DNA from: Enterobacter cloacae complex sp. R_G8
Lineage (GTDB): Bacteria; Pseudomonadota; Gammaproteobacteria; Enterobacterales; Enterobacteriaceae
Assembly (NCBI RefSeq): GCF_024599795.1
Contig: NZ_CP102246.1
Span: 4,774,001 to 4,838,000 of the forward strand
DNA length: 64,000 bases
Direction of reading: 5' to 3'
In this document: positions 51,427-54,801 of the stretch, in pieces
How positions within the stretch are numbered: the first letter of the stretch is position 1
How the letters are laid out: each line of letters starts with the position of its first letter
Program-made: the position numbers and the translations under genes
The notes under the pieces: model-generated
Told to the model about the DNA's origin: nothing
The model's database searches: none
Seen by the model: only the letters and a program-made list of their open reading frames with translations

Positions 51427-53076
51427 TTACGCGCGCCATGCTTTATAGCGATTAATCAAACCATTTGTCGAGCTGTCGTGGCTGCTAATCGCCTTATCAT
51501 CACCCAGTTCAGGCAGAATGCGGTTCGCCAGCTGTTTGCCCAGCTCAACGCCCCACTGGTCAAAGGTGAAGATGTTCAGGATAGCGCCCTGCGTGAAGAT
51601 CTTATGCTCATAAAGGGCAATCAGCGCGCCCAGGCTGAATGGCGTGATTTCACGCAGCAGGATGGAGTTGGTTGGGCGGTTGCCTTCGAACACTTTGAAC
51701 GGCACAACGTGTTCCAGGGTGGCTGGATCTTTACCCTGGTCACGGTATTCCTGCTCTACTACCTCGCGGGATTTACCAAACGCCAGCGCTTCAGTCTGAG
51801 CGAAGAAGTTAGACAGCAGTTTCGGATGGTGATCAGACAGCGGGTTATGGGTGATAGCCGGGGCGATGAAATCGCACGGTACCATTTTGGTTCCCTGGTG
51901 AATCAGCTGATAGAACGCGTGCTGACCGTTGGTGCCTGGCTCACCCCAGATGATTGGGCCAGTCTGGTAATCCACCGCGTTGCCGTTACGGTCAACGTAT
52001 TTACCGTTGGATTCCATATTGCCCTGCTGGAAGTAGGCCGCGAAGCGGTGCATGTACTGGTCGTACGGCAGGATCGCTTCGGTCTCTGCGCCGAAGAAGT
52101 TGTTGTACCAGATGCCGATCAGCGCCAGCAGCACTGGCAGGTTTTTCTCAGGTGCGGTGGTGGAGAAGTGTTTGTCCATCGCGTGCGCGCCGGAGAGCAG
52201 CTCAACAAAGTTGTCGAAGCCCACGGAGAGGATGATGGACAGACCGATCGCGGACCACAGAGAGTAACGGCCACCCACCCAGTCCCAGAACTCGAACATG
52301 TTCGCGGTGTCGATACCGAACTCACCGACCGCTTTACCGTTGGTGGACAGAGCCGCGAAGTGCTTCGCCACGTGCTTGTTGTCGCCCGCGGTTTTCAGGA
52401 ACCAGTCGCGCGCGCTGTGGGCGTTGGTCATGGTTTCCTGGGTGGTGAAGGTTTTAGACGCCACCAGGAACAGGGTGGTTTCCGGGTTCACGTTCTTCAG
52501 CACTTCGGCGATGTGGGTACCATCGACGTTAGAGACAAAGTGCATGTTGAGGTGGTTTTTGTATGGACGCAGCGCTTCGGTCACCATGAACGGGCCGAGA
52601 TCAGAGCCGCCGATACCGATGTTAACCACGTCGGTGATCGCTTTGCCGGTGTAGCCTTTCCAGCTTCCGGAGATGATCGCTTCAGAGAAGGCTTTCATCT
52701 TTTCCAGCACCGCGTTCACTTCCGGCATCACATCTTTGCCATCAACGATGATTGGCGTATTGCTACGGTTACGCAGTGCCACGTGCAGCACGGCACGGTC
52801 TTCGGTGCGGTTGATCTTCTCACCGGAGAACATGGATTTGATGGCGTCGGCAAGCTGAGTCTCTTTTGCCAGATCCTGCAGTTTCGCCAGCGTCTCTTCG
52901 GTAATGCGGTTTTTGGAGAAATCCACCAGCATCAGGTCATCGAAGGTCGCGGAGAATTTGTTGAAACGATCGGCATCGTTCGCGAACAGCTCCGCGATAG
53001 TGACGTCTTTCATTTCATCAAAATGTTTTTGTAGTGCCTGCCAGGCAGCGGTCTGCGTTGGGTTGATGTTTTTCAT
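51427..53076 (-). CDS. pgi: Glucose-6-phosphate isomerase
   Basis: Cytosolic interconversion of glucose 6-phosphate and fructose 6-phosphate. 549 residues from the ATG at 53076 ([20 protein letters not shown]). Catalytic residues are in ESNGKYVDR (Glu, about 355), [15 protein letters not shown] (His, about 386) and [12 protein letters not shown] (Lys, about 514); the phosphate-binding SKTFTTQET stretch is intact. Monocistronic, divergent from lysC. Confidence 0.98.
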
Positions 53077-53451
53077 TAGCAATACTCTTCTGATTTGAGA
53101 ATTGTGACTGCGGTCGATTGTAGCGCCTGCAAATAAAAATTGTGATGGTTTTTATGCCATTGCCCTGGCCTGCATCAAACGCAGGTGAAAAGACCCGAAA
53201 AGTATAGCTGCTGACGCGCCCACCCGTGGCGGCGAAATGTCGGTCAAAACCGGGTAAAATGAAGCATAAAATATGGCCCTGTTATAAGTCCTGTTTCTCA
53301 GGGGTACCCCCCCATGAAAAATCCGCATAATCCCGGCATTGACAGGACCTCCCCCGCATTTTATTTATAGGGCCGTATTTTGCGCCTGCACCTGTTTTCG
53401 TTTCATTCTTGTGCCATGGTCGCTTTATTCATTCCCTGACACGAGGTTGTT
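53077..53451 (+). promoter_or_regulatory. lysC leader without a visible lysine riboswitch
   Basis: 375 bp between divergent pgi and lysC. In E. coli this gap carries the lysine riboswitch (L-box), whose core has conserved stretches such as AGAGG, AAGTAA and TTGGAGGAG. I find none of these. A small hairpin CCTGC/GCAGG is at 53169-53185. A -35 TTGACA lies at 53339-53344 with an AT-rich -10 region about 17 bases later. The lysC ribosome binding site cacgaggttgtt is normal. Confidence 0.6.
53268..53381. repeat. Nested inverted repeat in the lysC leader
   Basis: Outer arms AAAATATGGCCCT (53268-53280) and AGGGCCGTATTTT (53369-53381) pair at 12 of 13 positions, the odd one being T opposite G. Inner arms GTCCTGT (53288-53294) and ACAGGAC (53342-53348) pair perfectly. 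The palindrome ggggtacccc is at 53301-53310. The whole, 114 bp, could be a small miniature element or an RNA fold. Confidence 0.6.
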
Positions 53452-54801
53452 ATGACGAGTTTTGTGGTCGCCAAGTTTGGCGGCACCAGTGTGGCAGATT
53501 ACGATGCCATGAACCGCAGCGCCGATGTGGTGCTGGCCGATCCGAATACCCGCCTGGTAGTGCTTTCTGCCTCTGCTGGCGTGACGAACCTGCTGGTTTC
53601 TCTGTCTGAAGGACTGGAGGCCACCGAGCGCTTCGTTAAGCTGGACGCACTGCGCAAAATTCAGTTCGACATCCTTGAACGTCTGCAGAATCCAAACGTG
53701 ATCCGCGAGGAAGTAGAGCGCCTGCTGGAAAATATCACCACGCTGGCAGAAGCCGCTTCTCTGGCCACCTCCACCGCCCTGACCGATGAACTGGTCAGCC
53801 ACGGTGAGCTCATGTCCACCCTGCTGTTTGTTGAAATCATGCGTGAACGTCATGTTCAGGCACAGTGGTTCGACGTGCGTAAAATCATGCGCACCAGCGA
53901 TCGCTTTGGCCGCGCCGAGCCGGACGTGGAAGCGCTGGCCGAGCTGACCAATCAGCAGCTGGCCCCGCGCCTGGATGAGGGTATCGTGATCACCCAGGGC
54001 TTTATCGGCAGCGAAGCCAAAGGCCGCACCACCACGCTTGGCCGTGGCGGCAGTGACTACACCGCGGCGCTGCTGGGCGAAGCGCTGCACGCGACCCGCG
54101 TCGATATCTGGACTGACGTCCCGGGGATCTACACCACCGATCCACGCGTCGTCTCTGCGGCAAAACGTATTGATGTGATTGCGTTTGAAGAAGCGGCGGA
54201 AATGGCGACCTTCGGTGCGAAAGTGCTGCACCCGGCAACGCTGCTGCCTGCCGTGCGTAGTGATATCCCGGTCTTTGTCGGTTCAAGTAAAGATCCGAAA
54301 GCGGGCGGTACGCTGGTATGCAAGAAAACCGAAAACCCACCGCTGTTCCGCGCGCTGGCCCTGCGCCGTAAGCAAACGCTGGTCACGCTGCACAGCCATA
54401 ATATGCTGCACTCGCGCGGCTTCCTGGCGGAAGTGTTTGGCATCCTGGCGCGTCATAATATCTCCGTGGATCTGATCACCACCTCCGAAGTGAGCATCGC
54501 GCTGACGCTGGACACCACCGGTTCAACCTCAACGGGTGACACCCTGCTGACGCAGTCGTTGCTGATTGAGTTGTCTGAACTGTGCCGCGTGGAAGTAGAA
54601 GAAAACCTGGCGCTGGTGGCGATCATCGGTAATAAGCTGTCGCGCGCCTGTGGCGTGGGCAAAGAGGTCTTCGGGGTACTCGATCCGTTCAATATCCGTA
54701 TGATTTGCTACGGTGCCTCCAGCTACAACCTCTGCTTCCTGGTGCCAGCTGAGCAGGCGGAGCAGGTTGTGCAAAAACTTCATCAGAATTTGTTTGAATA
54801 A
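53452..54801 (+). CDS. lysC: Aspartokinase III, lysine-sensitive
   Basis: Phosphorylates aspartate, the first step to lysine, threonine, methionine and diaminopimelate; feedback-inhibited by lysine. 449 residues: kinase domain with KFGGTSVADYDAMNRSA (about 8-24) and the TTLGRGGSDYTAALLGEALH nucleotide region (about 198-217), then two ACT domains from about 300 that bind lysine (SVDLITTSEVSIALTLD near 341). Allosteric region looks intact. Terminated after its stop; the leader lacks the expected riboswitch. Confidence 0.97.
   Translation: MTSFVVAKFGGTSVADYDAMNRSADVVLADPNTRLVVLSASAGVTNLLVSLSEGLEATERFVKLDALRKIQFDILERLQNPNVIREEVERLLENITTLAEAASLATSTALTDELVSHGELMSTLLFVEIMRERHVQAQWFDVRKIMRTSDRFGRAEPDVEALAELTNQQLAPRLDEGIVITQGFIGSEAKGRTTTLGRGGSDYTAALLGEALHATRVDIWTDVPGIYTTDPRVVSAAKRIDVIAFEEAAEMATFGAKVLHPATLLPAVRSDIPVFVGSSKDPKAGGTLVCKKTENPPLFRALALRRKQTLVTLHSHNMLHSRGFLAEVFGILARHNISVDLITTSEVSIALTLDTTGSTSTGDTLLTQSLLIELSELCRVEVEENLALVAIIGNKLSRACGVGKEVFGVLDPFNIRMICYGASSYNLCFLVPAEQAEQVVQKLHQNLFE

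Follow-up and report, generated by a model that had tools for sequence, protein, structure and literature searches.

A conserved lysC leader in Enterobacter and related genera retains the promoter and expression platform of the lysine riboswitch but lacks its aptamer

In an Enterobacter cloacae complex genome, the lysC gene is preceded by a short leader that carries the promoter and the Shine-Dalgarno (SD)-sequestering expression platform of a lysine riboswitch leader but no lysine aptamer. The same leader stands before lysC at all 30 loci sampled in the genus and in many relatives, and it is under constraint across 15 genera, being conserved above neutral expectation. We infer, with a probability of roughly 0.6, that this is a riboswitch leader stripped of its aptamer, in which two competing hairpins set lysine-independent translation of lysC while lysine acts through feedback on the LysC enzyme.

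Absence of a lysine riboswitch upstream of lysC

The genome consists of one contig of 4.95 Mb, and the window (the whole 64,000-nucleotide stretch analyzed) covers its positions 4,774,001-4,838,000. By sequence similarity, its lysC lies nearest to Enterobacter. The locus, in window coordinates, is as follows:

53077..53451, plus strand: pgi-lysC intergenic gap, 375 bp (pgi, on the minus strand, starts at 53076; lysC, on the plus strand, starts at 53452)
53452..54801, plus strand: lysC, lysine-sensitive aspartokinase III, intact by alignment to E. coli AK III

The leader lies upstream of a lysine biosynthesis gene, i.e., in the genomic context of the lysine riboswitch family RF00168. A sequence-only reading of the window had proposed that the riboswitch is missing from this gap, that its conserved motifs are gone, and that lysC and its ribosome binding site are nevertheless intact, and the analysis bears out all three. 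The SD sequence (ACGAGG) occupies 53441-53446, and LysC can be aligned to E. coli AK III (2j0w) at 449 of 449 residues. An Rfam scan of the whole window at the gathering threshold found no RF00168, and the covariance-model search of the gap that had been suggested as a check, run on 53000-53500 at E up to 10, likewise found none, returning two meaningless matches only (PCA3_2, E 0.48; sR4, E 8.8). RF00168 was also not found in the whole genome, in which all 106 first-look candidates were scored; positive-control genomes, including E. coli, do match. The aptamer core motifs AGAGG, AAGTAA, and GAGGAG are absent from the 375-bp gap, and all three are present in the E. coli lysC leader. A hidden or divergent aptamer was therefore rejected, since gap, genome, and genus have no RF00168 and the gap has no core motifs. 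At the gathering threshold, the only Rfam matches in the window were two small RNAs, STnc430 beside pgi (RF02053, 51258-51419, plus strand, 93.7 bits) and sraL (RF01408, 13175-13316, plus strand, 151.8 bits).

Motif spotting alone would be misleading. Four RF00168-negative Citrobacter leaders (L098, L100, L103, and L115) contain AGAGG, three of them (L098, L100, and L103) together with AAGTAA, but these motifs fall within inserted repeats and were rejected as traces of an aptamer.

The short leader as a riboswitch leader without its aptamer

A sequence-only model, R1, was built from 38 aligned short leaders (alignment A1, 38 of 43 distinct short leaders; alignment A2 comprises 58 of 70 distinct platforms, rows with long loops having been excluded). 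At E <= 1e-3, R1 matched 116 of 295 genomes of a family sample, 31 of them strongly (E <= 1.1e-15) and 85 weakly. The strong matches start at model position 1 in 28 of 31 cases, and RF00168 occurs in none of these 31 genomes. The weak matches have a different setting: 83 of 85 lie 4-184 nt 3′ of a same-strand RF00168 match (median 19; 68 within 30 nt), and none of these 83 begins before model position 12, indicating that the 3′ part of the short leader is the riboswitch expression platform. On this mapping, the aptamer of riboswitch genomes is located between R1 positions of about 8 and 19. By R1 homology, the window leader also contains a homolog of the SD-sequestering segment of the E. coli-type lysC platform. 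The short leader uses the riboswitch expression platform yet is not a member of RF00168.

The 5′ side of the two leader types is shared as well:

53339..53367, plus strand: inferred lysC promoter (TTGACA at 53339-53344, 17 nt, TATTTA at 53362-53367), assigned from conservation

Its −10 element is weak, and it was not picked up by a consensus promoter scan. The block AAATCCGCAT...TTGACA is common to short leaders and riboswitch leaders, standing 5′ of the aptamer in the latter. The distance from TTGACA to lysC is 112-142 nt in short leaders without a repeat insertion and at least 333 nt in those riboswitch leaders where the element was found. In addition, GGTCGC or GGTCAC follows the strand shared by the two hairpins described below in 31 of 31 short leaders, and GGTC occurs there in 0 of 46 riboswitch leaders; the RF00168-negative Enterobacter sp. 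Bisph1 retains the riboswitch-type loop GGCTGA.

The junction itself suggests how the aptamer might have been removed. The E. coli leader has its first TGCG 12 nt after the −10 element and another 27 nt before TTGTG, and the window has a single TGCGCC 12 nt from the −10 element and 28 nt before TTGTG. We hypothesize that this arrangement is the expected remnant of a deletion between direct repeats. Of the 22 riboswitch leaders with an identified −10 element (the search pattern found one in 22 of 46 rows), however, just 11 have their first TGCG at 11-12 nt and so fit repeat-mediated excision; among short leaders, 17 of 31 have TGCG at 10-12 nt, the others carrying extra bases.

Distribution across the genus and family

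RF00168 was found in 0 of 61 genomes of the genus (stricter filters, 35 candidates scored per genome). An aspartokinase match is present in 61 of 61, the best match in one of them (G325) being a distant paralog only, and all 30 of the genus lysC loci that were fetched carry the short leader. RF00168 was detected in 136 of the 295 family genomes; many of the negative genomes measure 0.4-2 Mb, and a LysC match at E <= 1e-120 is present in 204 of the 295. Among named relatives found by lysC similarity, RF00168 is present in 27 of 50 and 13 of 30, i.e., 40 of 80. Of the 40 negative ones, 31 have the short leader directly, and in a further four (L085, L098, L100, and L103) it contains an insertion or additional bases; the remainder comprise four with an Atlantibacter-type leader (L089-L091 and L102) and Bisph1, which has a degenerate aptamer (L067). 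In an E. coli genome collection the leader of the window had no match; the wider region was matched by 5375 of 5426 genomes, none covering 80% of it. The comparison with relatives that the sequence-only reading had called for (no RF00168 in any of the 61 genomes of the genus or of the 31 short-leader genomes of the family) agrees with its claim of a lost riboswitch as far as the aptamer is concerned, but the loss is not specific to this genome, and the promoter and the SD-sequestering platform have been kept.

Several RF00168-negative leaders are of another make: Bisph1 (L067/L182, G193), G268 (L183), the Atlantibacter type (L184-L185, L089-L091, L102; G062, G264), and G034 (L186). These show degenerate aptamer remnants, a lost platform, or a repeat-like remnant, and apparently represent independent losses. 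Repeats that we take to be ERIC-like, from their resemblance to ERIC primers, are inserted in or beside lysC leaders in L098, L100, L103, L160, and L180, upstream of the promoter in L115, and inside the riboswitch in L063; several coincide with the point at which transcription of the short leader presumably begins. Two records carry lysC regions that do not fit their titles: that of Citrobacter freundii M-21 (L102) clusters with Atlantibacter, and that of Chryseobacterium sp. 18061 (L054) with a genus of Enterobacteriaceae. Both records are likely mislabeled or contaminated.

Conservation of the short leader

Conservation was assessed over the 76 nt before lysC with one genome from each of 15 genera. 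Mean identity was 81.4% for the leader and 83% for the promoter, compared to 50.5% at lysC four-fold sites and 55.6% in the spacer that precedes the promoter. Leader identity exceeded four-fold-site identity in 105 of 105 genus pairs. Within the leader, identity is 0.88-0.93 in the hairpin arms, 0.71 in the apical loop, and 0.75 in the SD-hairpin loop. Should recombination have spread the leader, some of this low divergence may reflect recency and not selection.

These values bear on the suggestion, also made from the sequence alone, that lysine control may rest on enzyme feedback alone or on another element. Residues 317-348 of LysC, the feedback-site stretch, are identical to those of E. coli AK III, which fits a role for feedback; this stretch presumably holds the lysine-contact and feedback-resistance positions M318, S321, G323, L325, D340, T344, S345, and E346. 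Identity in the leader, however, clearly exceeds that at neutral sites, so feedback on the enzyme does not by itself account for everything.

Evolutionary history

The trees cover 80 genomes selected from the 204 in the family whose LysC match reaches E <= 1e-120: every short-leader genome, five that carry neither element, and 45 neighboring riboswitch genomes. The window was added to both trees and E. coli to the lysC tree. The short leader is scattered on both trees (uvrA, 81 rows; lysC, 82 rows), requiring eight changes on each, and a single short-leader clade was rejected by the AU test (p = 2e-5 for lysC and 1.4e-9 for uvrA). A partial uvrA row (G108) distorted the first uvrA tree; without it nine changes are required on uvrA, and it was omitted from the clade test. 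As metH was well recovered in only 44 of 81 loci, it was not used as a second marker.

Although the short leader is polyphyletic on the trees, one loop sequence is shared by 31 of 31 such leaders, suggesting one origin followed by recombination, with a single emergence and later transfer between genera as the probable course. Separate losses in the individual genera are disfavored, since the loop of all 31 short leaders is seen in 0 of 46 riboswitch leaders. Convergence, or regain of an aptamer, is a possible alternative to a single origin. On the lysC tree, E. coli, a riboswitch genome, nests beside two short-leader genomes (SH-aLRT 100), so exchange could have run in either direction.

Two predicted competing hairpins

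Folding of the leader predicts two mutually exclusive hairpins that share a strand:

53407..53419, plus strand: anti-SD strand of the sequesterer hairpin (UCUUGUGCCAUGG), from pairing and folding
53434..53446, plus strand: SD strand of the sequesterer hairpin (CCCUGACACGAGG), ending in the SD ACGAGG
53382..53391, plus strand: 5′ arm of the predicted anti-sequesterer (GCGCC-U-GCAC), from folding, without covariation
53411..53423, plus strand: 3′ arm of the predicted anti-sequesterer (GUGC-CAU-GG-U-CGC), from folding; its first part is the strand that also pairs with the SD

In the predicted SD hairpin, CUUGUG-CA-GG pairs with CC-UG-CACGAG. In the predicted 5′ hairpin, GCGCC-GCAC pairs with GUGC-GG-CGC, withdrawing the anti-SD strand from the SD. 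Pairing is maintained in 97.0% of SD-hairpin cells on 57 distinct platforms of both kinds, in 99.1% on 40 short leaders, and in 94.7% of cells of the 5′ hairpin, with no double changes in either structure. Covariation support was sought for both and none was found, shuffled 3′ letters pairing equally well in the tests; with no double changes and shuffles performing equally, covariation neither supports nor refutes the SD hairpin. A strand common to both hairpins would itself be expected to hold back covariation.

Fold energies distinguish the two leader types. After 31 short and 46 riboswitch leaders were collapsed to distinct 46-nt 5′ segments, the mean was −12.0 kcal/mol for 22 short leaders versus −4.6 for 33 riboswitch leaders (Mann-Whitney 4e-10, uncorrected for relatedness). 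Against dinucleotide shuffles, the 5′ segment of the window has a z-score of −1.54 (16 of 200 shuffles as good) and four other short leaders have −1.53, −1.26, −1.30, and −0.80, compared to +0.77 for E. coli and +0.23 and +0.95 for two other riboswitch leaders. The SD hairpin is not exceptional against shuffles in either the window (−0.36) or E. coli (+0.53), and the whole leader of the window gives −1.03. The sole outlier among hairpins so folded is the SD hairpin of L162 (G177; −3.50). In L162 and L071 (Enterobacteriaceae bacterium 89), the SD hairpin is nearly perfect, two base differences restoring both mismatches.

The two hairpins of the window have similar energies (−9.6 and −9.1). During stepwise extension of the transcript, the 5′ hairpin is the most favorable structure up to the emergence of the SD strand, after which the SD hairpin takes over (about 0.99 at equilibrium); a default-ON state would therefore need kinetic control. 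Minimum-energy folds of 31 short leaders contain the SD hairpin in 24, the 5′ hairpin in four, and neither clearly in three. The anti-sequesterer is damaged or weakened in genus g57 and in Trabulsiella.

Proposed mechanism and alternatives

For the E. coli lysC riboswitch, PMC5584792 describes lysine binding as changing SD access and exposing RNase E sites, and PMC5234074 describes the anti-P1 stem, predicted to hold the switch in its ON state, as particularly large. Loss of the aptamer entails loss of this stem. In the scheme proposed here, the aptamer would have been removed in one deletion, perhaps between the TGCG(C) repeats, and the short leader would then have gained a 5′ segment (GCGCCUGCAC ... 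GUGCCAxGGUCGC) able to trap the anti-SD strand during transcription. The 5′ hairpin may thereby take over the role of the anti-P1 stem, hairpin competition would set lysC translation without lysine sensing by the RNA, and lysine control would be left to feedback inhibition of LysC.

The closest contender is that the short leader is a regulated switch, with hairpins toggled by a signal other than lysine (sRNA, protein, Rho/NusG together with pausing, temperature, or ions). The similar energies of two mutually exclusive hairpins and the conservation of their arms in 15 genera are in its favor, as are, for E. coli lysC, a pause near the start codon (reported in PMC5234074) and its listing among mRNAs under premature Rho termination (PMC7815308). 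The apical loops are not conserved, arguing against a ligand pocket there, and covariation is missing. This explanation is possible but rather unlikely. Equally tentative is its evolutionary extension: instead of decaying, the orphan platform would have evolved a rival hairpin of its own and turned into a compact, autonomous RNA switch of about 75 nt answering to a non-lysine signal, and recombination across Enterobacteriaceae would exchange this allele for the aptamer-bearing one.

Plain loss, in which the leader is vestigial, lysC constitutive, and the similarity among leaders a product of recent horizontal spread and not of selection, is improbable. It accords with the absence of covariation and with the lysC and uvrA trees, on which short leaders do not form one clade and must have moved or arisen repeatedly. 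Recency should be uniform, however, and conservation is patchy, highest in the arms and lower in the loops; the promoter is equally conserved, and truly decayed leaders (Bisph1 G193, G268, Atlantibacter G062/G264, and G034) look different.

Translational coupling has a much smaller chance of being correct. A short upstream ORF lies in the SD-hairpin loop, and its translation would open that hairpin:

53416..53439, plus strand: seven-codon ORF, M-V-A-L-F-I-P-stop, from ORF reading

Of 40 aligned short leaders, 26 have its ATG, and in 21 of these 26 the frame runs for seven codons to a common TGA ahead of the SD. The ATG is missing in the other 14, also within Enterobacter, no SD precedes it, and with no lysine codon the ORF would not sense lysine; as the sole candidate ORF examined, it likewise offers no lysine leader-peptide attenuator. 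Finally, a diverged lysine riboswitch below the covariance-model threshold has next to no likelihood: weak family matches (down to 46.6 bits) show that divergence occurs, but about 80 nt from promoter to lysC compared to a 182-position model, no match at E up to 10, and no core motifs refute it unless transcription begins farther upstream than the promoter assumed here.

Significance and comparison with known systems

Half of the 80 named relatives have no lysine riboswitch, many of them through one common, conserved aptamer-less leader. No description of such a leader was recognized in the literature on lysC and the lysine riboswitch in Enterobacter, Citrobacter, and Klebsiella, a scope that leaves out most subscription journals. 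Eight species are reported in PMC5584792 to have no lysine riboswitch at all, and some of the species considered here may be among those eight. The two leader types offer a natural before-and-after comparison of how an expression platform acts and evolves once its sensor is lost, and lysine-analogue drugs aimed at the lysC riboswitch would find no such target in these genera.

Like RNA thermometers and other bistable 5′ leaders, the short leader is predicted to bury its SD in a hairpin that competes with an alternative fold. The strand opposite the SD is CUUGUG, which by inspection we take to be neither a fourU nor a ROSE motif. The degenerate lysC leaders of Bisph1, Atlantibacter, G034, and G268 are likewise RF00168-negative but differ in having aptamer or repeat remnants or a lost platform, and they share no common compact leader. 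With the E. coli lysC lysine riboswitch (RF00168), the window leader has in common its position before lysC beside pgi, the promoter block, and the 3′ SD-sequestering platform; it differs in lacking the aptamer, in its loop (GGTCGC, compared to GGCTGA in the riboswitch type), and in a 5′ segment predicted to fold against the platform.
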